Source: Lachnospiraceae bacterium (GTDB lineage: Bacteria; Bacillota; Clostridia; Lachnospirales; Lachnospiraceae). From it: DNA of 64,000 bases. Of the stretch, positions 18,492-37,344 are shown piece by piece (the stretch's first letter is position 1; each line of letters begins with the position of its first letter). The stretch is from contig JAFZVZ010000036.1 in assembly GCA_017617545.1 (NCBI GenBank), positions 21,789 through 85,788 of the forward strand, written 5' to 3'. The position numbers and the translations under genes are program-made. The notes beneath the pieces were generated by a model. It was not told the origin of the DNA. It saw only the letters and a program-made list of their open reading frames with translations, and did not search any database.

Positions 18492-18785
18492 TCAGCCCTG
18501 CTTTCCATTCGACTGGCGGATCATATCCTCCACAACAATGTCGTAAATCTCGCCCACCGAATTGCAGTACTCAAGCAATTTCCACGGCTCATTCGTATGA
18601 AAATGAACCTTGATCATATCCTCGTCACCGACCGCGATCAGCGAGTTACCCTCGATGTGCGTGGTGATATACTCCGCGATCTCGTCCTCGTCAAGATCCC
18701 TGTCCCGACGATCAATCAACATCTGCGTGTCAAATCGATATGCGAAAGGATCGTCCTCCGCATCGATGCTGTGGATGGGTTCCAT
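18492..18785 (-). CDS. Stand-alone FakA/DAK-like domain protein (small)
   Basis: A 97-residue protein whose body matches the middle region of fatty acid kinase FakA/YloV: YRFDTQMLI, DEIAEYITTHIEGNSLIAVGDEDMIKVHFHTNEPWKLLEYCNSVGEIYDIVVEDM. In full-length FakA (over 500 aa) this segment follows the DhaL-type kinase domain, which is absent here. RBS GGAGGACCC precedes ATG. It is upstream of tatD-rsmA on the same strand. It could be a free-standing FakB-interacting or regulatory module rather than a remnant, since start, RBS and frame are clean. Confidence 0.75.
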   Translation of the reverse strand: MEPIHSIDAEDDPFAYRFDTQMLIDRRDRDLDEDEIAEYITTHIEGNSLIAVGDEDMIKVHFHTNEPWKLLEYCNSVGEIYDIVVEDMIRQSNGKQG

Positions 18786-18914: not shown

Positions 18915-19406
18915 TCAACTAGTCCTATTATACTGATTTCTTGTTGTAATTCCACTCTTTTTTCCGGTTGACAGCAAACGGATGATCTTATTGTTTATTC
19001 TCAAGCAACGAAGCTTTGGGGTATCGTTATCGGCAATGTCTATCGTCATAAATACCTTGTCATGTATATCCTCCAAAACATGAGTATAGACATTCTTCCC
19101 CCTCGGTCTAGGTGAATGCAAAACAACGCTACTTCTTTTCTCAATTGCGGCCTTGGTAAAAACTGACAAGCCCATCTTATGTCCGGGACAATTATGATTA
19201 TCGGCGTACATCTCAAGGCAACTATGAGAATAATTACCCCAGGTCATTATTTTCTGTTGTAGCTCTTCATCATCCGGACATTCCTATAAACAAATGATAT
19301 CCGCAGATACTTTCTCCAGGATCCTTTGAAAGAGCACTACATTCTGCTCATAATTACCGTTTTCGTATAAACTTCCCATGTTCCATGTCGCAATCTTCAT
19401 GCCCAT
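18915..19406 (-). pseudogene. EEP-family nuclease copy, nonsense-mutated and truncated
   Basis: Reading from ATG 19398-19400 (alternative 19404-19406; AGGGAGA upstream) gives MKIATWNMGSLYENG...VSADIICL, then TAG at 19284-19286, then ECPDDEELQQ in the same frame down to TGA 18915-18917. The stop replaces the Gln of the CLQE motif conserved in the intact neighbour, a single C-to-T change. The C-terminal GDxN and SDH motifs are also missing, so the copy is truncated as well. It lies 14 bp after the intact EEP gene and is AT-rich like it. An active suppressed gene is unlikely given the missing catalytic end. Confidence 0.8.
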
Positions 19407-19419
19407 TCTCCCTTTTTTG

Positions 19420-20223
19420 TTATGGCTGGTGGACATATTTGTCTTCGGTAAGACAATCAAAAATGCAAAGATAATGGTCAGAAAAATTCTTCACTTTTTC
19501 TACATTGACAACTTTTACTCCGGATGTTACAAAAAACGAATCCAACTTCTTCCCTCTGGGGAAGTAATGTCCCTCTCTCATCCCGGGCGGTGTAGTCGCA
19601 CCAATTAGTCGATCAGTTATGATGTCTTTGAGATCGGGAAATATCTTAATAAAGTCACGTGTATTTAGATCCCCTAAAACAATCATTTCCCTATCGCAGT
19701 TTTTTATCGCTTCGTAAAGGGGGCGATACGATTCCGGATAATCCTTCGCTTTTTTCCCAAAAGGCGCAAAACTTATTCCATGACAATTGAACAAGCGCAG
19801 ATTGTCTGACACAGACGACACAATAAATGCTTTGTCAAAAGACTTATATACAATACCTGTTCTGCTGATCTTCTCAAGATTCGGATTCATAAAATAGATA
19901 ATCTCATTTTCCGTGAATTCTTCCTTAGAAAATGTAGCAATGCCAATTCTTCCCCCTTTAAAAAGGAAGGAGGGACAGGTGTCAATACACGCAAAATGTT
20001 TCAGTCCGGTTGCTTCTGAAATTGTCTTTTTCAGACAATCTTCTCCATCAATAAGAAGTGGAAACTCTTGAAAGCAAACGATATCCGGATCGTAGTCTAC
20101 GATGGTATCAATAATCGATTGAATTATCTCTTCGATATCGTCAATCGACGATAGTTCAACTCCCTTTTTGAAGTCCCATACTGCAGGCACACATTCGCTC
20201 AGGTTCCAGATACATATTCTCAA
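19420..20223 (-). CDS. Endonuclease/exonuclease/phosphatase (EEP) family protein
   Basis: A 267-residue Mg-dependent phosphodiesterase-fold protein. All expected catalytic elements are visible: WN (Asn7), CFQE (Glu53), GDLN (Asp185, Asn187), Asp228 in KLDS, and FSDH (Asp249, His250). EEP enzymes cleave DNA, RNA or inositol/lipid phosphates; the substrate cannot be told from sequence. The start appears to be TTG 20221-20223 with only a weak Shine-Dalgarno, so translation may depend on the upstream gene. It is AT-rich and belongs to the tail of the vWA/tubulin gene train. Confidence 0.85.
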   Translation of the reverse strand: MRICIWNLSECVPAVWDFKKGVELSSIDDIEEIIQSIIDTIVDYDPDIVCFQEFPLLIDGEDCLKKTISEATGLKHFACIDTCPSFLFKGGRIGIATFSKEEFTENEIIYFMNPNLEKISRTGIVYKSFDKAFIVSSVSDNLRLFNCHGISFAPFGKKAKDYPESYRPLYEAIKNCDREMIVLGDLNTRDFIKIFPDLKDIITDRLIGATTPPGMREGHYFPRGKKLDSFFVTSGVKVVNVEKVKNFSDHYLCIFDCLTEDKYVHQP

Positions 20224-20324
20224 TTTACTGATATGGCATCACACCCCTTAACCGATTTCATAGACACAACATATTTATGTTTCTCAGCAGAACCATCAAA
20301 GCCTTTATAACTATGTTGAAAAAA

Positions 20325-21938
20325 CTATTTTGACCTTAGTTTTTTTATCGGTCCAACCGAGAAACCAGCCAGAGACAGTAATCCCGATGTAACGGTATTT
20401 TTGATATCCACTTTCAATGCGCAGTAAGCGCAAACTCCTGCTGCTGCCACACCGATAGCGACAGGCACCGCGTTCGGCATTGTTGCACTGACTATTGCTT
20501 TCGGATTCTTTTCATTTTGGATGAATTCAATAAGACAGCACTGCAAGTCATACAACCCGTAAATCGGGTAAAACAACGGCTCCTCACGTTTGCCCTGCAA
20601 AGCAACATATTCGTTATCATTACCCTTGAACCTGATCCTTGTTACATCCTTTAATAATCTGCAGTATGCGATGTAATTTGCCTTCTTTATTGTTCTTCTC
20701 TGCATCGGAGATAACTTCATAAAGTAACCCGACTTTATCAACCGTGTACTGTAACTGAGAAATACATATTCGGGAATTATCTCGTATTTGTCTTCCAAAA
20801 AGCTACCGCTTACAGCACCGTTATGTGTTTTGCATTCATAATAGTACTTGTACGTCTCGAGCAAGTCACTGTTTACATCAAGTTTAAAATCATTCAGATG
20901 GTCCAGCAGATACTTTACCGATTTGGAAAATGCCTTTACGCTTTCTTCCTCCAATTCCAGATCATACAAAAACACTATTTGGATCAGACAACTATGCAAC
21001 ACAGAAGGCATTTTTTCACTTGCGCTGGTTTTTCCGACCCCTCCGTCAACGGAATCTATGATTTTCCTTTTTGCCCAGGTTTCGAACTTAACACATGCAG
21101 CATGAATCCTATCAAGAATCCTTTTGTTCGTTTCTTGTGCCAGTTCATTACTTCCTTCGTCAGAATCGAAGAACAACCGATATTTCTTCAATGTTTCATA
21201 ACAGAAATGCGATGAAAGAATCGAATAGCGGATTTCCGTCCCGTCCGTTGTCTGGCACTTATCTCCATATGCCCACGCCGATTCCTTTTGACATCCTACC
21301 AACCAGGATAAAGCCCCGACAATCAGCTTATAACGTTCGCGAAGTTCCGTTTCCGCCTTCTTCTGCTCATCCCCCTCCGGCTTTTTATTCACGTAGCTGT
21401 TACTTATAAAACCTATTCTTAACAGTGCAGACAATGCTACTGTCGTTTGATTACAAGTTCCTGAGGAAACACTGTTCGTCTTATCAATTTTCGTCGGCCA
21501 GTAACATACTTCGTTTCCGTCCTGATCGGTTTCTCTACACGAAACTACTGTTAATGTGTTAACAAGGCGATCGATAAGGATCTTTATATTATCTACGTTT
21601 TCTCTTTCGCCGGTTTTTTCTATCTGTTCCAACCCCTTATATAAAATCAGAAGCGCAAAAGACAATGCGCAGACATTGATTTCATCAGTGGCGACTTTAA
21701 AAAAGACCGGGCATATAACAAATGGTGTGGGATCACCCTTCGTTTTCAGGCCGTAGCGTCTCGCATCCTTTTCCCAATCCACACCATATATGTTTCTTAA
21801 TGTATCTCCGGTTATCGGCTCGCAGGCATTGCATACAGTATTTACACTCTCTTTCACATAAAACTTGCTAAGTGAAAGCATTTTCTCTACGCTGACACTC
21901 TCATAATTCTTATCGAACAAGCTAATACTTTTTTTCAT
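20325..21938 (-). CDS. Alpha-helical toroid-like protein with hydrophobic C-terminus
   Basis: A 537-residue protein starting at ATG 21936-21938 (AGGAGACCGAGC upstream; the open frame extends farther but has no RBS there). Repeated helices with WPTKIDKTNSVSSGTCNQTTVALSALLRIG and similar segments recall the alpha/alpha6 toroid of terpene cyclases and prenyltransferase-like proteins, but no DxDD or QW motifs are clear. Residues about 485-525 are hydrophobic (VPVAIGVAAAGVCAYCALKV), suggesting a C-terminal membrane anchor. It lies between the radical-SAM and EEP genes on the same strand. Family not recognised with certainty. Confidence 0.7.
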   Translation of the reverse strand: MKKSISLFDKNYESVSVEKMLSLSKFYVKESVNTVCNACEPITGDTLRNIYGVDWEKDARRYGLKTKGDPTPFVICPVFFKVATDEINVCALSFALLILYKGLEQIEKTGERENVDNIKILIDRLVNTLTVVSCRETDQDGNEVCYWPTKIDKTNSVSSGTCNQTTVALSALLRIGFISNSYVNKKPEGDEQKKAETELRERYKLIVGALSWLVGCQKESAWAYGDKCQTTDGTEIRYSILSSHFCYETLKKYRLFFDSDEGSNELAQETNKRILDRIHAACVKFETWAKRKIIDSVDGGVGKTSASEKMPSVLHSCLIQIVFLYDLELEEESVKAFSKSVKYLLDHLNDFKLDVNSDLLETYKYYYECKTHNGAVSGSFLEDKYEIIPEYVFLSYSTRLIKSGYFMKLSPMQRRTIKKANYIAYCRLLKDVTRIRFKGNDNEYVALQGKREEPLFYPIYGLYDLQCCLIEFIQNEKNPKAIVSATMPNAVPVAIGVAAAGVCAYCALKVDIKNTVTSGLLSLAGFSVGPIKKLRSK

Positions 21939-21994
21939 GCTCGGTCTCCTATTCCATAGATAGTTTGTTTTATGTGCAAGCATTGGAAAATACA

Positions 21995-23326
21995 TTAGAT
22001 ATACTTATCGACTATATATTCACCATACAACGGCTGCTCTTCAAGGATGGACTCATCAATTGAAAAGCCTTTTATCCAACTGTTATTAATCGTGTCAGTC
22101 ATCGACAGAAACATATCCCAAATATCCTGTCCGTTAAGTTCGGCCAGATCATATACAGGAACGCTCTGACGATCATAATTCCGCCAGTCATGATCATGAA
22201 TGATCAAATCTTTTTCTGAAAAACGTTGTTCATCAAACGGGTATGGCACAAATACACAGTTCTTGACCTCGTCAATCATCCTTTCTTCCAAAAGCGTGGT
22301 AAACAGAGATGTGGTTGCATTGATATTCTTCATGGTGGATCCAGGAAATCCGATTGCTGAATACAACGAAATATACATGTCGGAATTATTCCGGATCATC
22401 TGAATTGCTTTCATTAATCTGCTTGTCTTAAGTGCACGTTTGTTGTGCAGCAACAATTCATCATCCGCTGATTCCGCTCCAAGCCGGATTTCTCTAAAGC
22501 CGGCTTTTACCATATTCTCTATTGTTCTTTCGTTGATCAGATCCGCTCTGAAATCACAACTGAGGATGAACTCATGCCCTGTTTCCTTAATCTTTCCACA
22601 GATTGTCTCGATCCTTTTAGAATTTCCTGCTCCGAGAACACTGTCAAAAAAATGAACACATGTGCGCGGCGGAAGATGCTCCTTGAAAAATGAAATGTTG
22701 CCATCATCATAAACCGGACAATAAGGAATCAATCTATCCTGACAGTAGTTGCATGTAAAAGGGCATCCAAGAGTGGAAAATGTATTGATAGCATATTCGG
22801 AAATCTTATCCGGTAGAAGCCCAAATTCCGCATACGGTCTTTCAATCGGCATTAATTCTGCCCCGACGATTTGCTCCGCTGCCGCAGCATCAAACCCTAC
22901 TGCATAAACATCAAAATTACCAAACAACTTTTGAGTAGTAATCGGTGCAACATTCAATTGTGCTCCACCAAGTACAAATCTCGTGGTTGGAAACAGGAGC
23001 CTATACTTGTCAACCGCCTCAGAGCACCCCGGAACGGTAGGACAAACCGCTGAAAAGGCAATTACGTCCGGCGGAATCTCCAACGTCAGCAAGTATTCCT
23101 CCAGGTTCTTAAACTCAATATATTTTACATCGTAACCATTATAATATAAAATCGTTGCGATCCTCAACAACCCCATTGCGTATGTTTTCTGTTTGGGCGG
23201 AATATGTTCCCCTAAACGCGTGTATCTCACAATGTTTTTTATCTTAAAATAGCGCCGCTTAAGATCTCGTAATCTTGGATCAATATCCTTGTCATATGTA
23301 GTTGCATCGACCAGAATTACCTTCAT
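21995..23326 (-). CDS. B12-binding-like radical-SAM enzyme
   Basis: A 443-residue radical-SAM protein. The N-terminal 160 residues have a Rossmann-type layout seen in cobalamin-binding radical-SAM enzymes (PPDVIAFSAVCPTVPGCSEAV, RFVLGGAQLNVAP), though no DxHxxG motif for base-off cobalamin is visible. The cluster motif is CPFTCNYC (Cys188, Cys192, Cys195), followed by GAESADDELL and the strand pattern of an Elp3/MiaB-type barrel. ATG 23324-23326 is chosen with AGGA eight bases upstream; a TTG two codons earlier is less likely. Its location after the 1732-aa gene suggests it modifies a component of that system; the substrate is unknown. Confidence 0.82.
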   Translation of the reverse strand: MKVILVDATTYDKDIDPRLRDLKRRYFKIKNIVRYTRLGEHIPPKQKTYAMGLLRIATILYYNGYDVKYIEFKNLEEYLLTLEIPPDVIAFSAVCPTVPGCSEAVDKYRLLFPTTRFVLGGAQLNVAPITTQKLFGNFDVYAVGFDAAAAEQIVGAELMPIERPYAEFGLLPDKISEYAINTFSTLGCPFTCNYCQDRLIPYCPVYDDGNISFFKEHLPPRTCVHFFDSVLGAGNSKRIETICGKIKETGHEFILSCDFRADLINERTIENMVKAGFREIRLGAESADDELLLHNKRALKTSRLMKAIQMIRNNSDMYISLYSAIGFPGSTMKNINATTSLFTTLLEERMIDEVKNCVFVPYPFDEQRFSEKDLIIHDHDWRNYDRQSVPVYDLAELNGQDIWDMFLSMTDTINNSWIKGFSIDESILEEQPLYGEYIVDKYI

Positions 23327-23380
23327 ACGCAATTTCCTGCCATTTCATTTCTCTCTCATACCACCCAAGATCTGTTCCGC

Positions 23381-26300
23381 TCACGCATTCTTAAACTTAA
23401 TGGTAATCGTTCGGATATTCTTGTCGCACGTGTACGTATAAGCGTTGCTCTTGATCTTCCGGTTCATGGAAGCCGCGGCGGCTACAACCTCGTAACCGTC
23501 GTTGCCGGTGTTGAACAGGCGATCCATCGCGGTCAAATACAGATCCTTCGTGGAGCATTTGAACGCAAAGGACTTCCTCTGCTCGCTCGCGGCCGTTCTG
23601 GCCATTGTTTTGATCATGCCGAGGTTGTACTCGTCAAGGACGTAATCGTTATGCGTAAAATAATTCGCCCGAACAGCAGCGCAGACCGGCATCGGCACGG
23701 GGCACAGGTCGATATCGCGGGTTCTCCGGATCTCCTCCGTCGTGACACAGAAATAGTCAAATCCAAGATCGGTGGACTTTACGGTCTGGACCGTATCGGA
23801 ACTGTCATCCCATGTCGCATCGAGGTAATAATAATCCCCGTCGATCTTCACGATGTTCCAAGCATGGGTCTCGCTCTTGCCGTTGTTGCTCTCTTTACGG
23901 ATATTGCCGACAACTTCCGCACACTCAACGCCGCATCTCTGGAGAAGGTACTGCAAAGCGCGCGCATAGCCTGCGCACACTGCCTTTCCGTTGATGAAGA
24001 CGCCGCAGATCGTACGAAGAAAATCGATCTTATCCTTGTCTGGACCGCCCTTCTCGTCCTCCTTATTCAAAGCGATCGTGTCGTAATCAACCGCCGCAAT
24101 GATCTTCGCCTGAAGACGAAGCGCTACGTCGTAGGCGCTCATGGAAGGCTCGATGTCATGTAAATACTGGGACACGGAGCTGTAGATCTGCCGCTGCAGC
24201 GACTCCGTCTCCTCCTTGGTCGCACCGTATTTCAAGGTCACAGTGCTGCCGATCCACGAGCATGTCTTGTACCAGAACAATTCCGGATGGTCGTATTTTA
24301 CGGCGTCGGAGACCTTGTCGATCTCCTCGGAAGTGCCCGATACGGTTATCGTTTCACTGAAGTTGCGGATACCCTCGACAAACTGATTGTACATGGTCTG
24401 CATTGAGGAATTGAGCCGGTTATAGTAGAAATACGGCACCTTGTCCGGCGCAACGCGGTCCATCCGCTTCGGAATGTACGGCCGCCCGAACTCATTGGGC
24501 GCGATCACCCTCGGGATCCTCGTGCCGATCTCCTCACCGTTCTTCTCGCGAAGATACCGGAACGGATTGTTGTTATACTGCGGGTTGGCCAGCAGTTCAC
24601 TTACCAATGCGCGGTATCCGATGCCGGCAATCCCCTCCGTGCTCTCGTAGTACGTCGTCCGCGCGGACGCAAGCGAACTCTGATGCAGAAACCGCAGGTA
24701 CTGCAGTGAAACAAGCGCGATCTGTCCTTCCGCAAACGCCTCGTCGAGCAACGGCAATTTCTTGATCTGCCACACGTGCGTGAGCTCACGCACCAAAAGC
24801 TCCGAAAGGTTGGCCGCGGGTATTGAATTTTCCACATAAACCTTCCGGTCGAGAATATACGACTTTAACGGGATATCCTGGCCGCGCTTGCTCACGGTCT
24901 TGTCATTTTTCAACGTGTTGTCGATCTTCTTGCTCGCGGCAAAGCAGAACTCGTAATCGAGCTCATCGGTCGCTACGCCGTACGTACTTTCGAGGAAAAT
25001 CTTCGCGTGCTCCAACGCGGTTTTGAGCGCTCTCCTGTCGTTACCCACAAGCTTCAGCTCGCAGGCACGGCACATGCGGCGCCCGTCCTCCAACACATGG
25101 AGGTGCTCGCTCTTGGCGTATCTCTTGCCGCAGAAATCACACGTCTCGGTCACCATCACGGCCTCGACATCGGTGAATTTCAGGTCATGCTTGTCATCGC
25201 CCAGGATCTTCGAAAGCTTGAACAGGGAATCGATGTCGAAGCAGGACACTTCGTTCGCGTAACCGAATTTCAGGTAGTTGCTGTCCCCGAGCGCTCCGGT
25301 ATACCAGTTCAGGTACTCAAAGACCGGATTGAACAGCGTGTTGAGGACATCGTCGCCGCCGGTCGCAAGCACCGACACGACACCGAGATCCGTCTCGCAG
25401 TCCTCGATGATCACGAGCGTAAAATCCTGCTCGGAGATCAGTTCGTCATCTCCCGCGCCCTCCGGATCCTTTCGGAGCACAAGCTGCGGCTGCGTGCGGA
25501 GAATGCTCTTCGCCTCGTCGTCCGTGAACTCGCCGTGAAGCACGGGGCACACGACCACGGAATCGGCAACGGACGGGAACATCGAGTGAATGATCTCGTT
25601 CAGCATCACCGCCGCGAGAAGCATTGTCTTATCAAGATTCTTTCCGAACTGTCCCTTGATCCGGATCGACATCATGCGCGCATCGTTCGCGTACGCGTTG
25701 ACGTTGCCGGACTGCAGGAAGAAGTCCGTCGGGGAGGTTGTGTTCCCATATTTGCGGTACGCCTGCTTCGCGAGCGCATCGTTTCCGGGATCACTGATGC
25801 TCACATACACGCTCCGTCTGCCCGAATCGCCGACATTCAGCGCCAGGGTGTGCGGATCGATCTCATAATATCCCTTTGTGAGCACTTCCATAGGCGCGCG
25901 GAACACGGACACATAGACATCGTCGATGCAGACGTCGTTGTCGCGGCGATGCAGCTCGATGTGCTTTGTGTCTCTCGTGATCTCGCGGTTCAACTCGACA
26001 TGATACTCTCTCGCCTGGACATACCTGTATACTTCGTTGTTCTTTCCGCCGACTGCCAGCCGGACATACAGACGTCCCTGAGAGATATCGATCTTGTCGA
26101 TGTGGTAAATATTTCCGTTATACAGCAGGTTCTGCCCCGCGATATAATTCTGCGTGATCCTTCTTCTGGGCAGCGGGAGGATGATCTCCGAACCCGCGAG
26201 CGACATGACAGCCATGTCGCGGCCGTTGATCATATCATAGATCTCACCGCGCTTGCGGAGTTTCACACGATTTTCCGAACAATAATCGCCGTTCTCGTCG

Positions 26301-28579: not shown

Positions 28580-28596
28580 CCCGCACCCCCGTTCTT

Positions 28597-30840
28597 TCAG
28601 TTATATATGGTCTTAATAAATCGTTTGTCGAAAATGGAATAGAAATTCCGGTTGTTCTCGCCCGAGCAGAACGACAGGCAGTAGTCGATCTTATCGCTCG
28701 CCGTATCGAACGGATCCGTGCTGCCACCGTCGAGCACGGCATTGTCCACCAGATCCTGGTTGATATTCTTGACCGTCTCCGCGCGGCGCTCAAGCTTCTG
28801 CGAATGATGCTGCAGCTTCGCTCTTGCGATCTTGCAGCAGTCTTCGTAAAATTCAACATCCACCTTGTACTCGTAAATCCATCGAAGCGATGGGATGTAA
28901 CCGGACAGCAGACGGTCAAACGCCTCCGCCGAGGCTGCGTTCTGCTGCAGCTGCTCCCTCGATTTCGCCCGGAATTCCTCCCAGACTTTACAGTATTTTC
29001 TGCGCTGAATGATCATTGCCACGGTCACGATGCAGAGCGTGATCAGCAGCGGCACCCCGATGCATCCGAGCGCGGCCAGCGCGTTGCGCCAGTTGCTTGT
29101 GATCGTCTTCTGCTGGAGCACAATGTACGGCAGATAGATCACCAACATTGCCAGGATCATACCGAGGGCGATCCGCTTGATCATCCTGAGGCTTTCGGTG
29201 ATCTGCTTGATCCGCGTGACATACCAGTTGTGCTGGTCCTCGATGTTGGCGACCGAAACCTCTCTCCCGGCGCAGTACTCCAGGTACTCCTTGCGCTTTG
29301 TATCGTACGCGGCATCCGAGATATCTCTCACCGTGTCGAGTGACTTTGTCTCTGCTGTCTTCGCCTTGCGGGCATACCGGTATTCCGTGCCGGTCCCCTC
29401 ATAGTCCTTGTCTCCGGTGCTGACGGTTCTCTTCTTCAAACGGATCGGACCGTTCTCATCGGAGCGTCCGGCATAGTTTGCGAGCATCTCCGAGACATGT
29501 ACCTTCAGCTTGCTCAAGTAATCCTCGTGGTTCTTCCGAAGCTTCTCTCCCGCCTCAAGGAACCGTGCCTCCGGGGACTTCGGAGTCAGCTTTGAATCGT
29601 CGACGAAACCGTTGTAGTCGAACAGCTCGTATTCCTTTTCCGCAAGCATGTTATCGGTGCGGACCTGCTGCGCGTCGACCACCCACTCCCCGTCGGGATG
29701 AATGATACGGTTGTCCGTTTCCTTCTTCTTCGTCTCCGGATCGACCTTGGAGGTAACCAGAACCTTTCCGGGCTTTCCGAACTCATCCAGCGCAAACCGT
29801 TCATTGTCCAGCTGCAGAAGGACCGGCGCAAGTCCGATCTCTGAATACTTCTGCAGATTACCGGTCACTTCCTTGTACTTCCGGCGGAACACGCCCTCCT
29901 CGCGCGACAGTTCATCACACACGAGGCTCCAGTCGATCTCGGGGAAGCCTTTCGGCGCATTCGTGTTTCCGCTGTCAAGGACCGTCTCATCCTCCACACA
30001 GGAAAGTATGAAAAAACACAGGCGCAACTCACGCCGCGTCTGTTCCTGCTTGTTTACATTGAAGTCCGTGAACCTTCGGTTCGAGACAAGCGAGGTCATC
30101 ATTATTTCCCTGTCATCCGCATCCCCGTCGACAACGCGCTGATAGAACAGGTCGAGCGCCTTGGTGTCGGCGCCGCTGCGGACTTCCTGGATGAACATCG
30201 CGATCTGTCCGCAGTATGCCGCCAGGAGTTCCCTGTCCGCACCATCCCTGATCAGCCCGTCAGCCGTTTCAAGAAGCTTTTCGGGCTTGAGTTCCCCGTC
30301 CTCTTCCGCAATCGGAAAATCCTTCGCGAATTTCATGAACGAGTCGTCGGAAACATGGAACAGTTTCGATACGTTCTCATAGATCAGCCGCTTTCCGTCC
30401 GGGGAATTCCTGTCCTCGTCGTCCGGCTTGACATGCTCGTCAAACACGATCAGGATCTGCTGCGGCTCACTACCGCGGACCTCCCGCAGTTCTTTCACAA
30501 GCGTGCTGTTTATATAGTGGCGGAGCATCGACCTAAGCGCAGTGAGGCAGGCAAACCGCTCACGGTGCCGCTCCTGCAGATCCGGAGGAAATATTTTCCT
30601 GGTCTCAAACGTAAACAGATCAATGTAGACGATCAGATTGAAACCGTTGTTGATATCCTCGTAGCTGTCGATCAGCTCGCCCATCTTGTTGACACAGGCT
30701 TTGAACCCGAGGTTCTCTTCATTCCATTTGGCCAGCGGACAATTGAGGGAAACCAGTCTGTGCGTTTCCTCCATTACTTCAAACACTTCCGGATACCTGG
30801 TCAGTTCATGTTCCGAAGTATTAACGAAAAATGTATGCAT
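28597..30840 (-). CDS. Two-TM protein of the vWA/tubulin cluster, unknown function
   Basis: 747 residues with no signal peptide. The long N-terminal part (1-550) is soluble and mostly helical. Two membrane spans lie at about 555-576 and 587-611 (LGMILAMLVIYLPYIVL and GCIGVPLLITLCIVTVAMII), followed by a charged, coiled-coil-prone C-terminus (FRAKSREQLQQNAASAEAF, KLQHHSQKLERRAETVKNINQ). Topology predicts both ends in the cytoplasm with a short hairpin through the membrane. RBS AGGAGG lies eight bases before ATG. Position directly after the tubulin-like gene suggests it links the filament/GTPase to the membrane. No family recognised. Confidence 0.78.
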   Translation of the reverse strand: MHTFFVNTSEHELTRYPEVFEVMEETHRLVSLNCPLAKWNEENLGFKACVNKMGELIDSYEDINNGFNLIVYIDLFTFETRKIFPPDLQERHRERFACLTALRSMLRHYINSTLVKELREVRGSEPQQILIVFDEHVKPDDEDRNSPDGKRLIYENVSKLFHVSDDSFMKFAKDFPIAEEDGELKPEKLLETADGLIRDGADRELLAAYCGQIAMFIQEVRSGADTKALDLFYQRVVDGDADDREIMMTSLVSNRRFTDFNVNKQEQTRRELRLCFFILSCVEDETVLDSGNTNAPKGFPEIDWSLVCDELSREEGVFRRKYKEVTGNLQKYSEIGLAPVLLQLDNERFALDEFGKPGKVLVTSKVDPETKKKETDNRIIHPDGEWVVDAQQVRTDNMLAEKEYELFDYNGFVDDSKLTPKSPEARFLEAGEKLRKNHEDYLSKLKVHVSEMLANYAGRSDENGPIRLKKRTVSTGDKDYEGTGTEYRYARKAKTAETKSLDTVRDISDAAYDTKRKEYLEYCAGREVSVANIEDQHNWYVTRIKQITESLRMIKRIALGMILAMLVIYLPYIVLQQKTITSNWRNALAALGCIGVPLLITLCIVTVAMIIQRRKYCKVWEEFRAKSREQLQQNAASAEAFDRLLSGYIPSLRWIYEYKVDVEFYEDCCKIARAKLQHHSQKLERRAETVKNINQDLVDNAVLDGGSTDPFDTASDKIDYCLSFCSGENNRNFYSIFDKRFIKTIYN

Positions 30841-30932
30841 CCCAAAAGCCTCCTGTCCAAATCTCGGTTTGCGGGAAGCAGCGCCTCCCGCAAACCGAGT
30901 CCGAATACGTTAACTAACTTATAGTACAGCGA

Positions 30933-33900
30933 TCAAAACCAATGCTGGATCAGATCAATGTTCTTCTTCGTGCGCGACGTCGAATTCTCGTAGATCGTCC
31001 TGCAAAGCTCAAGCGCCTTGCCCTGGATCTTATCGTCCTCGCTCACCGTCTCGTAATTGCTTGCCACAAGCTCACGGCAAAGTCTCTCAAGAGACTGGAT
31101 CATCATCACGCAGACCTCTTCACTGTGCTTCGGCAGCGCAAAATATCTGGCGATGATCGTGACCGCGTTCGAATCGTTGTTCGAGCCTACGCCGCCGATC
31201 TTCTCGACCTTTCCTTTGCCGCCTCTGGTGTTCGTCGTTCCGCTGAAGAACTCCGTTCCCTGATACGTGGACAGCTGGCTTTCCTCCTCGAACTTCTTCT
31301 CCAGGCGCTCCGCCTCGACCATGAAGCTTCCGTCGATCCGTAACGCCGCGATCAGATCGATAATGCTCGCTACGGGGATCGGCTTACCGTTGTTCAGGAT
31401 CACTTCCTGCGACAGGTAGGAACCGGTCGCCGTAGTTTTCTTCCGTGCGATCTGGTATTTGCCTTCCGCGTTCACGGAGATCATCTGATACGCGATCGCA
31501 AGCCAGAACAGGCGGAAGAACTTGCTGTCCTCACGGATCTGCTTCTCGGGCGTGATGTACGGAAGGAACAAGTGCCATGTCTTATCCAGATGAGGCGTGT
31601 AGATCAGTTCGCTCTCGTTGCCCTTGGCCGTCTCCGAAACCATGCTGCGCACGACATCATTGTAGTTTCTGAAATATTCGCCGCCGGCAAGCTCGTTGAA
31701 CTTCGGCACGTAACCCGCCTGCACGCCGTAGACCGCGCGGTAGCAGTCCAGCTCGCTCTTGCGGTACGCGTCCTTCTGCTGCTTGCTGACGTCAACTCCG
31801 AGGATGCTCGCAAGCTCCGGGCACTCTCTCACGACAACCGGGTTGAAGCCCCAGAACGTCTTGCGCTTCTTGATCGGAGTGAAAATGAGGCTGTCGTCTC
31901 CGTCATCGTCCGAATCCGTAAGATGCTCATCGGGATCCTCCGGGCACTCATCGTCCGTGATCAGGAACGGTGCGCTCATCGCGCGCAGCTCCTTCGTGAG
32001 ATCCATCATCGCCTGCACGTGTCTTCTGTGACGCTGTGCCTGCTCGGTTACCTCTTCCTCATCAAGGCCTCCCTCGCTGAGGCGGGCAGCGCTGTCGTCC
32101 TCCTCGTCATCCAGCTGCGCCTTGCGGCTTCTCTCCTCCTCATACGCAAAATCGGAGCTCGCGCACACGGCTGCATAGATGTTCAGATCGATGTCGCTGT
32201 TGTTCTTTTTCTTGATCCTCTCGCCGTACGCCTTGGTAACTTCCTTAAAGAACACTCTCTCAATGCTCTCATCCTTGTACTTCGCGTTGTTCGCCGCTTC
32301 GGAGTTTTCCTCCACGCAGAACCGGCTGTAGATCGCCTTCGCGATGATCGCGTTGATGTACTTGTTGCTGCTCACCGTATCAAGCTGCAGCGACTTGTAG
32401 CGTGCTTCCTTCTCCTTCTCGCTCGCGCAGACGTAGATGATCTTCTGGTTCGCCTCAGCGTTCTTCTGAATATTGTCAAAGAGCTCGTCGCGGACCGTGT
32501 TCGAAACCTTCACAAGGTTCCGGAAGAAGGTCTCCACAACCTCCGTCAGCGTGCTGATCCGCTCGGACAACTTCACCGCGGTATAGTACTTCAATGCATC
32601 GATCGCATACGCGCGGCACAGTTCAACCTGGCCGCTGTTGTGCTGATAGTAAAGGTTCCTGAACTCCGCGAGGAATTTCGCCTGGCTCTGGAATCTGCCC
32701 TTGCTCTTGAGGTACGCGATCGCGTCCTTCTCGACCTCGCGTGTCTTGGGGTTGTCGAAACTGATCTTCTTCTTGCCGTTTCCGTATCCCTTCTCAGCGC
32801 TGGAGTACGAGGATTCCAGATCCGTCTGGTTCTTGATCTCCTCCAGTGCGTCGTTCAGCTTGTACAGCAGGTAACGGATCGCGATCGGATGTACGAAGTA
32901 CGTCCTCTCCGCGTTATCCTTCTTGGTGAAGAAGCCGTAAACCGACGAACTATTTTCCTGGTTGATATCTCCGATGTTGGTAGGGCAAAGTGCGTCGACC
33001 ACGCCCTCTGCGATCTCATCCACAGCGTTCTTAAAGTCCGTGAGGTATCTGGTCACGTTCTTGGCCTTCGTCTGAACGGTTCTCTGCAGGGTGCCTGCGT
33101 CATCCGATTCCTGATTGACCCAGGTCTTGGGCAGCCGAAGGGAGCTGACGCTTCCTCTCTCGTCGGAATCCACCGCTCTGACGACAAGCTCGTTCAGCTC
33201 TTCGACGAAATCCTCCACCTTATCCGTGTACTCCGGCTCGTAGGTGCCGTCCTCCTGCTTTCTTCTCACCTCGTTCTTTACGTCGAGGGCGATGTTGACA
33301 AACAGGCGGTCCGATCCGATCTCATTGCCGGTCTTCGCAGCCTTATCCTCGAAGAGTCTCATGTACTCAGCACGAGGATCGATGCGGCGGATGGAAACCA
33401 TACCGTTTCTCACCTTCTCCTCCTCGCGGCGCTGCTTCTCCTGGATCTCCTCGTCGATTCTTCTCCAGCCGACGGAGATCGATTCCTGCGTTGCGCGAAG
33501 CACGCAGTACTCAAGCACGTCATCGAACGGGTAGACGGCCTTCGCGGTACCGCAGGCACCGAACACCGGCTCCTCGCTCTTCTGGAAGCGCTTGAACAGA
33601 TTGTCCTCCTCGGAGTACATATCGTCATGCATCGGGGCGAACAGCTGCATGTACACCAGTCTCGCGATCACCTGCTCGTAATCGCCGAGGCTCTTGAGTT
33701 CCCCGCCGCCCTCGGCAATATCGTCAACGAAAAATGCGTAGTTGTACACCGGAAGTCCGTCCGGCTGATTCTTCTCGCTGTTAAACAGATCGTCGATGAC
33801 AAGCGGACGGGACAGCTTGAAGCCCTCCTTCGTCTTGATCTTCGTGATCGCGTTCAGCTCACGGATCGCACCGTACGCGTTTGCGTACAGGCTCTGCTTC

Positions 33901-34496
33901 TCCGTATCATCATCGTGGATATCCTTGATCGTCTTGATGAAGACATCCGGAAGAACGAAGATACCGCGGATGGTGATCGAGCATCTGCGGCTGTTGAAGA
34001 ACTTCCGCAGCCACAGCGCAACCTGGATGAACATGCCGGATCCGGTTCCGCCCGCGAGGGAGGAAACGATCATGACGCGGACCTTGTCGTCGTCGCTCGT
34101 GCCGAACAGCTCCACAATGTATTTCTGGAGTTCATCGATGGTCTTATCCGCGATGCAGTCCATGAGAGCCAGTCTCGACTTCGGTCTCATCTGGGACGCA
34201 CCGTCCTTCATGCTCTCCATCAGCAGAGACGGTGACTCCGGCATCCAATCCTTGACGCCCTTCGCCGCATACATGCGGATATAATCCTTGATCGTACGGT
34301 TCTTGCTGGTCGCGATCACCGGCACACCGACCTTCGTATTGAGCAGCCGTTTGTTGTCGTTGGAGTCGGTATCGAGCACCGCGCAGCAAATCTCTCCGTT
34401 GTTAAATCCGATCTTGTTCCTTGTCAGTTCGTCAGCCACGCTGTTCACGATACGGCTGCCCGTACCTCCAAGTCCTAACAATAGTGTACGTGCCAT
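30933..34496 (-). CDS. Tubulin/FtsZ-superfamily GTPase (Tubulin_2-like), very long
   Basis: Starts MARTLLLGLGGTGSRIVNSV, the N-terminal nucleotide loop of Tubulin_2-type proteins, and carries the tubulin signature loop AGGTGSGM at about 148-155 (GGTGSG at 149-154). The predicted T7-loop region is near YANAYGAIREL. The GTPase core takes about 400 residues; the remaining 780 form a helical, charged extension with a Glu/Asp-rich segment (QLDDEEDDSAARLSEGGLDEEEVTEQ) and no membrane span. ATG 34494-34496 is chosen because AAAGGAGG lies six bases upstream; an ATG two codons earlier abuts the Shine-Dalgarno. The gene follows the vWA gene by 20 bp. FtsZ-like families next to vWA genes have been predicted to act in membrane remodelling; assembly into filaments is inference. 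Confidence 0.88.
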   Translation of the reverse strand: MARTLLLGLGGTGSRIVNSVADELTRNKIGFNNGEICCAVLDTDSNDNKRLLNTKVGVPVIATSKNRTIKDYIRMYAAKGVKDWMPESPSLLMESMKDGASQMRPKSRLALMDCIADKTIDELQKYIVELFGTSDDDKVRVMIVSSLAGGTGSGMFIQVALWLRKFFNSRRCSITIRGIFVLPDVFIKTIKDIHDDDTEKQSLYANAYGAIRELNAITKIKTKEGFKLSRPLVIDDLFNSEKNQPDGLPVYNYAFFVDDIAEGGGELKSLGDYEQVIARLVYMQLFAPMHDDMYSEEDNLFKRFQKSEEPVFGACGTAKAVYPFDDVLEYCVLRATQESISVGWRRIDEEIQEKQRREEEKVRNGMVSIRRIDPRAEYMRLFEDKAAKTGNEIGSDRLFVNIALDVKNEVRRKQEDGTYEPEYTDKVEDFVEELNELVVRAVDSDERGSVSSLRLPKTWVNQESDDAGTLQRTVQTKAKNVTRYLTDFKNAVDEIAEGVVDALCPTNIGDINQENSSSVYGFFTKKDNAERTYFVHPIAIRYLLYKLNDALEEIKNQTDLESSYSSAEKGYGNGKKKISFDNPKTREVEKDAIAYLKSKGRFQSQAKFLAEFRNLYYQHNSGQVELCRAYAIDALKYYTAVKLSERISTLTEVVETFFRNLVKVSNTVRDELFDNIQKNAEANQKIIYVCASEKEKEARYKSLQLDTVSSNKYINAIIAKAIYSRFCVEENSEAANNAKYKDESIERVFFKEVTKAYGERIKKKNNSDIDLNIYAAVCASSDFAYEEERSRKAQLDDEEDDSAARLSEGGLDEEEVTEQAQRHRRHVQAMMDLTKELRAMSAPFLITDDECPEDPDEHLTDSDDDGDDSLIFTPIKKRKTFWGFNPVVVRECPELASILGVDVSKQQKDAYRKSELDCYRAVYGVQAGYVPKFNELAGGEYFRNYNDVVRSMVSETAKGNESELIYTPHLDKTWHLFLPYITPEKQIREDSKFFRLFWLAIAYQMISVNAEGKYQIARKKTTATGSYLSQEVILNNGKPIPVASIIDLIAALRIDGSFMVEAERLEKKFEEESQLSTYQGTEFFSGTTNTRGGKGKVEKIGGVGSNNDSNAVTIIARYFALPKHSEEVCVMMIQSLERLCRELVASNYETVSEDDKIQGKALELCRTIYENSTSRTKKNIDLIQHWF

Positions 34497-34516
34497 CTTC
34501 ATCCTCCTTTGATGAT

Positions 34517-37144
34517 TTATTGCAATGTAGAATAACAAAATGCGTTAGCGCTCTCAATCACTTCCCGCTTGCCGGGACCGGAACGTTCGTAATCGATCTC
34601 AGCGCTGCTGAAGTAGTACACCGTATCATCCTGCGATACATGTCTGTCCTGCTCATCCATGACGCGCGACGGCGAGATTTCGTAAATGATCAGCTCTCCG
34701 TTGCCCTCGCTGCAGTACTCGACCACTTCCTTGGGTGACCGGATGACCAGTCCCCTCGCCTTCGGCCGGATCGCGTCCGAGTACCACGGGAACTGCTCGT
34801 TACAGATGATCGTATTCCCCCGTCCCGCAGTGACATTGATCCCGCCGACCGACACGGTCAATTCCTTGAACGGGTTCCACAGGTTCGAGAACTTATTGTA
34901 TTTTCTGAGCGGGAACTCCGCCAGCTCCAGGCTGTGCGAGCCTCCGCCGCCTCTGTTCCGTGTGATCGAACCGACATACAGCACGCCGTTCGGCGCAAAT
35001 CTTGCCTTCGTAAAATACCTTACGATATATGCGATGATCGATGCCAGCAGAAGAAGCTCCAGCAGAAGCGGCGCGTATACATTCCACATGACATACCTGG
35101 AATCCTCGCCGACAATATCGATCTTCGCTTTGCCCGTGCCGTACTGGTGGCGAAGCGTCACTTCAATGTCCTTGCCGGACAATCCGAAGTAGTAGGCCCA
35201 GTTAGTCCACCAGTTGCCGAACGTCAGCTCATGCTTTTCCTCGCTGTACGGCGTGACCGTGATCGTTCCGTCGTCGCTGACCTCGACCTTGGTCTTCAGC
35301 TTCTCGTGCTCCTTGTTCAGCATGATGTCGATCTGCTGCTCCACATCGGCTTTGCCGAGCCGGACACCGTCCTTGGTGATGTAAAATGAAACCGACTTCG
35401 AATTCTCAAACAGTTCCGTCTTTTTGACCGAACCGTCGGCGTCGACGGCAAACACCTGATAATCGGCAAGCAGTACGGTATAGCTTTCGCGTGCCGAGGT
35501 TCCGCCGAGGATCGTGCATGTTACATCCACCGTATAGCTTCCCGCGCTCATATCCTGCGTGGATGCCGAATTCGGTGTAAAGATGATCCTTCCGTCATCG
35601 GAATATGTGACGTTGCCTCCGTTCCCCTGCGGGGACACATCGATCTTGGGATCTAACGCCTTAACCTCTGCCGGATCGGTGATCGCCGTTCCGTCGGCGT
35701 ATACCGTGAAACTGATCGCCAGATCTTTATTCGATGCTATGTCGTCATACTTAACACTTTTTGTATCACTCTCGAACGCCGACGAGATCGTATAAACAAC
35801 CCGCGGCGCATATTCCTTGGGTGTAAACCGTACGAATCTTTGGATCGGGCTGAACCCTTCGATGATCACGGCCGCCGAAAGTTCCGTGGGTACCTGCTTT
35901 AACACGTAGTCGGACAGTGTCATCTCCTGTCCTGTGCTCTTCTTGACCTCCGTGCCGTTCTCAAGCACGGTTATCTCAAAACTTGTTCCTGCCGGCAGAA
36001 GCGAAGGGTCGATCTCCTTGTTCGTGCCCATTTCGTATATCTTGCAGGATACCGAAACCTTGTCATTTTCCTGAGCGTCATCCAGCTCGCTGTTGTCGAC
36101 GATCTCCTTACCGTTCAGGGTGATTGTCATCCGGGTTTCAAGGGCCGGCTCAAAGAGAACTACGACATCGTTAATGTCCACTTCCTTGTCAAACACGATA
36201 TTGTACGTTCCCGAACCGATGACCGTCTGCGAATCTCCGAGCAGATATGAGCTGCCCTGAAGGTTCGGATGGTTTGGATAATTGATCAAAGCCTGCCGGC
36301 TGATCGGTATTATCGAGTCCTGTCCGTGAGTTGCCTTGACGATCCTGACGTCGCTGCCCTGAACGAATGCCGCGATATTGAGCAGCGGGATCGCCGAGGA
36401 AACCTGAAGTGTATTGCTGTCAAGTATCGTAATGCTGCTCCGGTCAAGTCTGGTCCGTCCGGATACTCTGTCCGCCAGCCCGTTCATCGCGTCGATGATC
36501 TCCGCCGTGTTGTTCGCGTAATATGTGTATATTCCTTTGCTTTGATCCTCATCCGGCGCGAGGGCTCCTGCGATACTCAGGTAAGTAACCTTCGGCGTGG
36601 TGCCATTCGGCATCACGGTTTTGGTATACTCATCCAGATGATTGTTCAAAAACTTTCTGTCTTTGTCATCGATAACTCCGTCGGTCGCGCATTCGTCAAA
36701 CGCGCCGTCGGTAATGACAACCAGCCAGTATTGTGTGTTCGGATTGGCATCCGGCACCTGTTTCAGTTTATCAAATGCCAGTTCAACAGCAGTGTACGGG
36801 GTGGATCCGTCATCCTTGATCGCGCGGATCGAGTCTACAGACGCCTGTATCCCGACCGCCGACAGGTCGACCTTCTCCGGCGTGTACTCCGAAATGCTCT
36901 GCGAGCGATGCATGTATGTGACATACAGCTGGTCCTCGCTGTTGAGCATGCCGCAGAACATCTGCATCGCATAGTTCGCGTTCGCCCATCTGTCCTGGCT
37001 CTTCATGCTTCCCGAATCGTCATATACAACCGAAACGATCTTCCGGATGTACATTGACTCGGCCGTCGCCACTTCCGTCCTGTCAAAAACGAGCAAACTG
37101 CAAAGCAGCGTTAGCATCACTGTTATCGCTGTCTTTCTCCGCAT
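34517..37144 (-). CDS. Exported vWA-domain protein with C-terminal membrane anchor
   Basis: 875 residues. An N-terminal signal peptide (MRRKTAITVMLTLLCSLLVF) precedes a von Willebrand A domain with MIDAS DDSGSM (about 42-47), a TPYT threonine and VITDGAFDE. Extracellular beta-rich modules follow (about 270-680). A single membrane span at about 690-712 (LLLELLLLASIIAYIVRYF) leaves a cytoplasmic tail of about 160 residues with FHA-like beta pattern (LYVGSITRNRGGGGSHSLEL, GLVIRSPKEVVEYCSEGNGEL). Start ATG 37142-37144 with GGAGGAGG. First gene of the cluster; it likely senses or binds an outside or cell-wall ligand and signals to the tubulin-like partner inside. Confidence 0.88.
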   Translation of the reverse strand: MRRKTAITVMLTLLCSLLVFDRTEVATAESMYIRKIVSVVYDDSGSMKSQDRWANANYAMQMFCGMLNSEDQLYVTYMHRSQSISEYTPEKVDLSAVGIQASVDSIRAIKDDGSTPYTAVELAFDKLKQVPDANPNTQYWLVVITDGAFDECATDGVIDDKDRKFLNNHLDEYTKTVMPNGTTPKVTYLSIAGALAPDEDQSKGIYTYYANNTAEIIDAMNGLADRVSGRTRLDRSSITILDSNTLQVSSAIPLLNIAAFVQGSDVRIVKATHGQDSIIPISRQALINYPNHPNLQGSSYLLGDSQTVIGSGTYNIVFDKEVDINDVVVLFEPALETRMTITLNGKEIVDNSELDDAQENDKVSVSCKIYEMGTNKEIDPSLLPAGTSFEITVLENGTEVKKSTGQEMTLSDYVLKQVPTELSAAVIIEGFSPIQRFVRFTPKEYAPRVVYTISSAFESDTKSVKYDDIASNKDLAISFTVYADGTAITDPAEVKALDPKIDVSPQGNGGNVTYSDDGRIIFTPNSASTQDMSAGSYTVDVTCTILGGTSARESYTVLLADYQVFAVDADGSVKKTELFENSKSVSFYITKDGVRLGKADVEQQIDIMLNKEHEKLKTKVEVSDDGTITVTPYSEEKHELTFGNWWTNWAYYFGLSGKDIEVTLRHQYGTGKAKIDIVGEDSRYVMWNVYAPLLLELLLLASIIAYIVRYFTKARFAPNGVLYVGSITRNRGGGGSHSLELAEFPLRKYNKFSNLWNPFKELTVSVGGINVTAGRGNTIICNEQFPWYSDAIRPKARGLVIRSPKEVVEYCSEGNGELIIYEISPSRVMDEQDRHVSQDDTVYYFSSAEIDYERSGPGKREVIESANAFCYSTLQ

Positions 37145-37241
37145 AGACAACCTCCTCCCCCGGCAGGCTTATTGCAGGCCGGGAAGCCTCTTTCCCCCGT
37201 GCATCGGTATCGGTTTTCACAAAACCGAAAGAGTACATCAT

Positions 37242-37344
37242 ATTATACCATATACAGCCGCTTACAAACAAGTTTTTCGTCCGCAACTTTCCCGCTGTTT
37301 TTTCGCTTGCCGCATACTATACCACACTTCCTGCGTAATGTCAA
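37242..37344 (-). promoter_or_regulatory. Tandem promoters of the vWA/tubulin gene train
   Basis: The distal promoter on the minus strand is TTGACA (37339-37344), 17-bp spacer, TATAGT (37316-37321). A second, downstream box TATAAT (37242-37247) is preceded by TGG (extended -10) and a TTGTTT 18 bp upstream. Between the promoters and ATG 37144 lies a leader with hairpin CGGTTTT/AAAACCG (about 37211-37228). The 354-bp gap 37145-37498 otherwise holds only the next terminator. Confidence 0.65.

Follow-up and report, generated by a model that had tools for sequence, protein, structure and literature searches.

Tubulin homologues of the FtsZl1 type encoded together with vWA genes were described by Makarova and Koonin (2010, PMC2875224), who inferred a role in membrane remodelling, and Kaur et al. 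(2020, PMC7159879) reported conflict systems of Firmicutes in which DO-GTPases and GAP1 occur together with tubulins and vWA proteins. The present study concerns a stretch of 64,000 nucleotides, hereafter the window, from a rumen Lachnospiraceae bacterium (GenBank assembly GCA_017617545.1, contig JAFZVZ010000036.1, positions 21,789 to 85,788 of the forward strand). Four genes of this window, coding for a vWA protein, a tubulin-like GTPase, a protein with two transmembrane segments (TMs) and a giant membrane protein, constitute a core unit which is spread over families of Clostridia and is best read as a new variant of the tubulin-vWA systems. It is proposed, with a probability of about 0.5, that this core may serve as a conflict (anti-invader) system with exchangeable effectors.

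An earlier interpretation made from the letters of the window (the sequence-only reading) had taken eight genes lying head-to-tail on one strand for a single membrane system. Scanning for open reading frames (ORFs) recovered the long minus-strand frames, seven of which, from 37150 down to 19420, are solid genes, and left the eighth, an ORF of 110 aa, doubtful. The core genes and the sites within the giant protein are as follows.

34517..37150, minus strand: core gene 1, vWA protein of 877 aa, start possibly at 37144, MIDAS DDSGS at residue 44
30933..34538, minus strand: core gene 2, tubulin-like GTPase of the FtsZl1/Tubulin_2 family, 1201 aa from a TTG start or 1187 aa from a later ATG
28597..30840, minus strand: core gene 3, two-TM protein of 747 aa, TMs near residues 557 and 593
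23381..28579, minus strand: core gene 4, giant membrane protein of 1732 aa with N-terminal TMs
25061..25141, minus strand: Zn-finger-like CxxC...CxxC of the giant protein, residues 1147-1173
24767..24790, minus strand: degenerate metallopeptidase site RELTHVWQ of the giant protein, residues 1264-1271 (HE[LM]TH in relatives)
23819..24151, minus strand: transglutaminase domain (PF01841) fused to the giant protein, C1535-H1572-D1587

Distribution and integrity of the core

Genomes compared are designated by G-numbers; G000 is the window's own (2.73 Mb in 45 contigs, with the core on contig 11) and G020 belongs to a sister species of the same genus. The search with the tubulin led from 99 relatives to seven genomes, three of which (G000, G020, G042) carry the core and four a more distant tubulin. 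A query with the full-length 1732-aa giant protein was swamped, its widespread transglutaminase domain matching in 222 of 391 genomes, so that only its N-terminal part was employed thereafter. The N-terminal profile detected the giant protein in 9 of 397 genomes of the bacterial family, and a wider profile in 5 of 391 genomes of the class, namely the window's own and a single genome from each of four further families. The core genomes number 14 (G000, G020, G042, G566, G595, G671, G674, G723, G730, G753, G133, G163, G417 and G168), and the tubulin gene is present in 2 of the 22 genomes of the window's genus.

In all 12 loci contained entirely in a single contig, the order vWA, tubulin, two-TM, giant on the same strand is kept and the vWA gene adjoins the tubulin gene; in G020 and G168 contig ends interrupt the core. 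Across 12 genomes the pairwise distances of the four core proteins gave six correlations with r of 0.76-0.93, a level reached in none of 5000 permutations, although shared ancestry of the hosts may account for part of this. Profiles of eight relatives match the vWA (99.8%), tubulin and giant (99.8% over 1120 columns) proteins of the window at 99.8-100%, and three controls at no more than 0.3%. The two-TM protein of the window matches the third gene of the relatives at 77.9% (E 2e-5, 136 columns). For G674 (17.8%) and G163 (42.2%) the third gene was assigned chiefly by its position and its two TMs; between the window and G674 third genes the profile comparison reached 0.4%, and between those of the window and G042 BLAST found no significant match.

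The sequence-only reading had proposed that repeated co-occurrence in unrelated flanks would mark one system. The four core genes do travel together across families of Clostridia, with flanking genes that vary among the loci by eye; the radical SAM, 556-aa and EEP genes, which complete the seven genes of the window, do not. In G595 and G723 a small protein of 208 and 195 aa, respectively (37% identical; L115:13618-14244 and L113:14199-14786), is encoded after the giant gene, and it may be a further core-linked part.

The vWA, tubulin-like and two-TM proteins

In the window, hydropathy analysis located one TM of the vWA protein near residue 691, with a tail beyond it, and the metal ion-dependent adhesion site (MIDAS) is intact. 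The motif DxSxS occurs in 12 of 13 vWA proteins, the exception being G163, where a short vWA ORF without it is followed by a 1.36-kb gap. As to the predicted export of this protein, its N-terminus looks export-type by eye, and the hydropathy scan, which flagged a segment at the N-terminus of 11 other vWA proteins, flagged none in those of the window and the sister species. None of the vWA models in Pfam matched the window protein, and the two-TM and 556-aa proteins were likewise without a convincing match there.

The tubulin signature noticed earlier was borne out by a match to Tubulin_2 (PF13809, E 5e-51) and by GGTGSG at residue 163, which together indicate the FtsZl1 N-terminal tubulin-type domain with its GTP loop; GGTG[SA]G is present in 12 of 12 core tubulins. 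Both TMs expected in the 747-aa protein were found. Taken with those of the vWA and giant proteins, the TMs detected by hydropathy would also suit a housekeeping-type envelope machine, in which the vWA protein reads a wall or surface ligand, the tubulin remodels the membrane, and proteases or transglutaminases process envelope proteins, along the lines drawn by Makarova and Koonin in 2010; this explanation is weighed below together with the neighbouring genes.

The giant protein and its catalytic ends

The giant protein starts with several N-terminal TMs, as judged by hydropathy, which are followed by a conserved region extending to about residue 1130, and Pfam gave no convincing match over the first 1100 residues of the family. 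An inactive superfamily 2 (SF2) helicase had been suspected by eye in the middle of the protein. This candidate was rejected, the profiles scoring at most 0.6% against six SF2-type sets that had been named by eye from sequence and length. In the positive control the DEAD-box, Mfd, RecG and PriA sets detected each other at 76-100% and SecA was detected by none above 28%; since SecA was missed, the giant protein may have a very distant relation to SF2. No relative of the middle region was found.

The CxxC...CxxC finger is found in 10 of the 13 full-length giant proteins, and eight of the 13 (G566, G723, G671, G595, G730, G674, G417 and G133) carry HE[LM]TH behind it. In the window and in G020 the finger is kept, the site reads RELTH and the chain runs on into the transglutaminase; neither finger nor HExxH is seen in G042, G753 and G163. 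The HExxH site is accordingly intact in eight proteins, degenerate in two and absent in three. The family DUF6782, a putative metallopeptidase, was matched by 4 of 10 scanned giant proteins with E values no higher than 1, the best being 1.9e-5, the window's own not being among them, and is weakly matched in G417 and G133. The end formed by the Zn finger and HExxH may resemble plant DA1 peptidases.

In agreement with the sequence-only reading, which had described a 1732-aa membrane protein with a transglutaminase triad, residues 1477-1587 match PF01841 above its cut-off (E 2.5e-7) and contain C1535-H1572-D1587; NF045980 also matches the protein at 1.5e-20, far below its own cut-off. Transglutaminase genes standing alone, all over the Pfam cut-off, are present at the G566, G671 and G674 loci. 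Judged by these motifs, the giant protein of the window has a decayed peptidase site with a transglutaminase fused behind it.

Relation to described tubulin-vWA systems

With the FtsZl1-vWA systems, as set out in the part of PMC2875224 considered here, the core has in common a vWA gene, its MIDAS intact, that adjoins the gene for a FtsZl1/Tubulin_2 protein (about 1100-1200 aa), as well as membrane proteins. The link to the 2010 work made in the sequence-only reading was thus right for vWA plus FtsZl1. The core differs from those systems in its fixed two-TM gene and in a giant protein that ends in Zn-finger/HExxH or transglutaminase modules, and neither an OmpA-type (not searched for) nor a P-loop GTPase partner was noticed.

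The likeness to the DO-GTPase/GAP1-N2 systems, to the extent covered by the portion of PMC7159879 used, consists in a tubulin and an exported vWA protein with TMs in Firmicutes, variable effectors and a membrane setting. The Firmicutes type of those systems, however, has two tubulin and two vWA genes, whereas the core has one of each, a second vWA gene being noticed only at G417. DO-GTPase2 (PF19993) was detected in none of the 14 core genomes (G020 and G168 being incomplete) as against 3 of 4 genomes with more distant tubulins; DO-GTPase1 was not searched for genome-wide. The Pfam matches obtained for the window genes and for 10 giant proteins included no GAP1 family, the presence of GAP1 models in the Pfam copy not being confirmed. 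In the tubulin tree the 12 core proteins lie on one side of a branch with 100/100 support and five distant tubulins on the other; since long branches meet there, as the program warned, the exact position of the root is unsure. The third gene showed no homology (0.1%) to the gene at the same position in three loci of the distant-tubulin type. Because DO-GTPase2 is missing, the tubulin branch is separate and the third genes are unrelated, the core is regarded as a new variant close to the described systems and not as a DO-GTPase-type member. Among the open-licence literature searched, no paper was recognised as describing this four-gene set.

The core as a mobile cassette in the genus

The following features delimit the core of the window on the 5' side of the vWA gene and on the far 3' side.

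37316..37344, minus strand: promoter-like site 5' of the vWA gene, TTGACA-17-TATAGT with TG
37499..39310, minus strand: flanking Na/Pi cotransporter gene, conserved in the genus (Pfam and genus comparison)
18492..18785, minus strand: flanking 97-aa ORF (FakA-like middle domain), followed by TatD (Pfam and genus comparison)

Thirteen stretches were fetched from genus mates. Eleven of them hold both flanking genes, the Na/Pi transporter and the 97-aa ORF, separated by a gap of 39 to 6523 bases, and the core is absent from all 11; the other two (G003, and G020, whose core is on other contigs) are cut short. The cassette in the window's genus therefore looks like a patchy, mobile insertion. The core copy of G133 lies near a Tn916-type integrase and excisionase. 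Searches of plasmids and viral contigs with the giant protein (phages were not searched with it) did not reveal the core, four plasmid records matching the transglutaminase part only. A record labelled as phage, MT836542.1 (UNVERIFIED, human faeces), encodes a vWA protein and a tubulin 63% and 84% identical to those of G566, next to a purC-like gene (by eye); it is probably a bacterial contig.

The 97-aa ORF matches the FakA-like middle domain only. It was considered as a gene severed by the insertion, and this was rejected, the ORF being a conserved small gene throughout the genus (82-96% identity in 12 fetched loci). Strong promoters had been claimed at 37.24-37.34 kb, and one promoter-like site was retained there, at 37344-37316 (11 of 12 matches), in a region where the scan found 27 such sites against 16.6 expected. 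An Rfam scan of 16000-40000 gave zero matches.

Immune-type genes next to the core

TIR genes were found at 5 of the 14 core loci. In G417 the gene lies 0.5 kb from the core; in G671, G595, G566 and G674, the last two with two TIR genes each, the distances are 2.1-6.3 kb. By eye, the TIR sequences show [WYN][VL]xxE in 7 of 7 cases. The 10 genomes scanned contain 42 TIR matches, six of them at core loci, so that 4 of 10 loci are occupied instead of the 0.51 expected (P 9e-4, calculated post hoc and with G417 not counted). The core is linked to TIR genes. On the core tubulin tree, loci having TIR and RyR-type genes are interspersed with loci lacking them, and the label of their presence requires at least five changes, four of the rows being long-branched.

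The same five loci harbour an RyR-type gene 0.1-9.3 kb from the core. In G417 it encodes a free-standing RyR domain (5e-35), and in G595 and G671 three-TM proteins with a C-terminal RyR match, above the cut-off in the former and below it in the latter. Used as a query, the RyR-related protein of G566 retrieved five matches including itself, one per genome and four at core loci (P 1e-7, post hoc, G417 not counted), a value which is inflated because the query was chosen at a core locus and counted among the four. The fifth match lies on contig 4 of G000 (L138:6621-11336), where, next to a citrate synthase gene, a relative of the RyR proteins with no detected RyR domain is encoded ahead of a TIR-LRR gene.

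Phage RyR-domain proteins have been reported to cleave or sequester cyclic ADP-ribose (cADPR) signals made by TIR enzymes (2026 preprint, PMC13232231). Since RyR domains are tied in this way, at least in the part of the preprint relied upon, to TIR-made signals, the pairing of TIR with RyR at three core loci is considered meaningful. TIR genes at 5 of 14 core loci and RyR domains at three recall TIR signalling and Thoeris, in which the TIR protein ThsB goes with the effector ThsA; as far as the descriptions drawn upon extend, however, nothing in Thoeris corresponds to the tubulin-vWA core, and the window locus has no TIR or RyR gene. No TIR match was obtained in the seven window genes or on contig 11 of G000, ThsA not having been searched for.

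Further neighbours differ from host to host. In G595 they comprise a CAP12/Pycsar-type TIR gene and a nucleoside hydrolase gene, and G595 shares with G671 a protein of 705/707 aa with weak, invariably sub-threshold matches to CASTOR/RCK channels. A Card1-like endonuclease and an AAA ATPase are encoded upstream of the core in G417, a RelB-PIN pair adjoins it in G730, and in G133 a subtilase gene downstream and a MazF-type gene were found. The methyltransferase, TIR and squalene-cyclase-type toroid genes of G566 (L112:2079-5367) are grouped opposite the core strand, near a TIR-WD40 gene. On contig 16 of G674 (L139, L122) the core is followed by a FHA-FtsK (EssC-like) protein and WXG100-like proteins (by eye), with a protein kinase gene between.

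Because TIR, RyR, CAP12-type TIR and Card1-type genes occur at the loci of relatives, defence, one of the two roles offered by the sequence-only reading, gains indirect support; the other, envelope remodelling, is a possible role of the core. Besides the TMs mentioned above, the envelope machine is favoured by the separate transglutaminases of G671 and G674, whose N-termini look lipoprotein-like by eye, by the subtilase downstream in G133 and by the EssC-like gene beside the G674 core. However, the patchy distribution, the fast turnover of effectors and the presence, at 5 of 14 loci, of neighbours of the TIR, RyR, CAP12-TIR and Card1 types better fit a conflict system, and the housekeeping explanation seems rather unlikely. 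The core might also be an antagonistic secretion or contact system with a partner resembling a type VII secretion system, and not a defence system. The FHA-FtsK and WXG100-like genes of G674 and the lipoprotein-like transglutaminases at two loci point in that direction, but secretion-type genes were noticed at only 1 of 14 loci and no array of secreted toxins was noticed, which makes this alternative quite improbable.

Several observations weigh against the conflict system itself. PADLOC matches none of the core proteins. The proteins of G566 and G674, related by BLAST to the RyR proteins, have no RyR domain detectable by the Pfam scan, which leaves the domain at three loci only; the assignment of all five neighbours as RyR proteins was rejected for this reason, and the odds of a conflict role are slightly lowered. 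At 9 of the 14 loci, including that of the window, no TIR or RyR-type gene was noted, G020 and G168 offering too little contig and G133 and G163 being checked by BLAST and by eye only. Some of the neighbours, such as the opposite-strand TIR and squalene-cyclase-type genes of G566 or the EssC-like gene of G674, could be separate systems. By eye, the other cargo that genus mates carry at the insertion site of the window is not defence-like, being made up of a HydF-like GTPase and small membrane proteins, and the composition of the core copy of the window is no different from that of its flanks.

A low-GC block behind the core

Downstream of the giant gene the window contains the following features.

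18968..23376, no strand assigned: low-GC block of about 4.4 kb, read as an insert, from the giant-gene stop codon to the 3' flank
21995..23332, minus strand: radical SAM enzyme with a B12-binding-like domain (sub-threshold Pfam matches and motif)
20325..21995, minus strand: 556-aa protein with a hydrophobic stretch near the C-terminus
19420..20223, minus strand: EEP-family (nuclease/phosphatase) protein (PF03372 and motifs)
18915..19400, minus strand: possible broken, truncated second EEP-like gene that includes the 110-aa ORF (by eye)

Two of the three solid genes were correctly recognised in the sequence-only reading: the radical SAM protein has the CxxxCxxC motif (CPFTCNYC), with radical SAM and B12-binding Pfam matches just below their cut-offs, and the EEP protein matches PF03372 (E 1e-10) and displays the QE, GDxN and SDH motifs. 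The single PADLOC match in the window, a weak one, is to the radical SAM protein (E 0.018). The toroid proposed for the 556-aa protein was not confirmed, since neither Pfam nor PDB yielded a match and no similarity was found to the squalene-cyclase-type toroid of a relative. By eye, the 110-aa ORF (18915-19247) and a piece at 19287-19400 look like a broken, cut-off second EEP-like gene; Pfam and tblastn gave no support for it.

The proteins of the sister species G020 are 84-96% identical to those of the window, and its giant gene directly precedes the 97-aa flank gene and TatD, the radical SAM, 556-aa and EEP genes being missing. DNA homology between the two breaks off at the giant-gene stop codon (23377) and returns at 18967, after 41 bases in G020. 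The block between has 40-42% GC, and its G+C content at third codon positions (GC3) is 0.39-0.44, compared with 0.69-0.78 in the core genes and 0.67-0.82 in four measured flanking genes. In the sequences fetched for the remaining 11 complete core loci, none of the three genes has a match. The 556-aa protein is found in 1 of 397 family genomes, the window's own, and a search that took in plasmids, phages and viral contigs returned nothing outside that genome; the radical SAM protein has partial matches (27-30% identity, E at most 1e-12) in 2 of 251 genomes of the order besides its own.

Because of the break in homology with G020 and the deviant composition, 18968-23376 would most simply be a later foreign insert. 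Loss of the block in G020 is possible, yet it leaves the composition unexplained. The idea that all eight genes form one operon and one pathway, three of which the sister species has lost, draws on the shared strand, the short gaps, the overlap of the 556-aa and radical SAM genes at base 21995, and a scan, itself performing only at chance level, in which no terminator-like site was seen on the minus strand from the giant gene to the radical SAM gene. Set against it are the difference in GC3, the clean junction in G020 and the absence of the three genes from all 11 other whole core loci. A common origin of the eight genes is thus disfavoured by these comparisons, and the single operon appears highly improbable; joint action of block and core, as assumed when the eight were taken for one system, found no support.

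Proposed mechanism and meaning

In the proposed conflict system the vWA protein would face the outside, anchored by its one TM, and act as the sensor, while the tubulin-like GTPase, the two-TM and the giant proteins would work at the inner face, probably through GTP-dependent assembly. The activated complex would then drive effectors that are swapped among hosts: a Zn finger with a zincin-like site in the terminal part of the giant protein, or transglutaminases, fused or separate. In some hosts the adjacent TIR and RyR-type genes could act through signals derived from nicotinamide adenine dinucleotide (NAD). For the window, the likely effectors would be the fused transglutaminase and the newly added block of radical SAM, 556-aa and EEP genes, if it acts together with the core at all. 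The core as a unit, its TMs by hydropathy, the exchange of effectors, the foreign composition of the block and the link to TIR genes are observed; the complex and its topology, the outside sensing by the vWA protein, the switching, the relay to effectors and the role in defence are all inferred.

A more specific version, which should be regarded as tentative and rather doubtful, is that of a new class of immune machine, in which an outward-facing vWA sensor of invaders would signal to the tubulin GTPase and this in turn to a platform of the two-TM and giant proteins, with a built-in zincin or transglutaminase, or a TIR enzyme, as the exchangeable output; the NAD-derived product of the TIR protein would act on the neighbouring RyR-type, possibly channel-forming protein.

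The occurrence of FtsZl1-type tubulins next to vWA genes has been on record since 2010, and no experimental function was found for these tubulins in the open-licence literature searched. The present analysis adds the sharply defined four-gene core, a large protein family without a convincing Pfam match over its first 1100 residues, and the repeated link to TIR genes. The core and the TIR link make the old question of membrane remodelling versus immunity directly testable and, if the proposal is true, a GTPase of cytoskeletal type would be serving as an immune relay.

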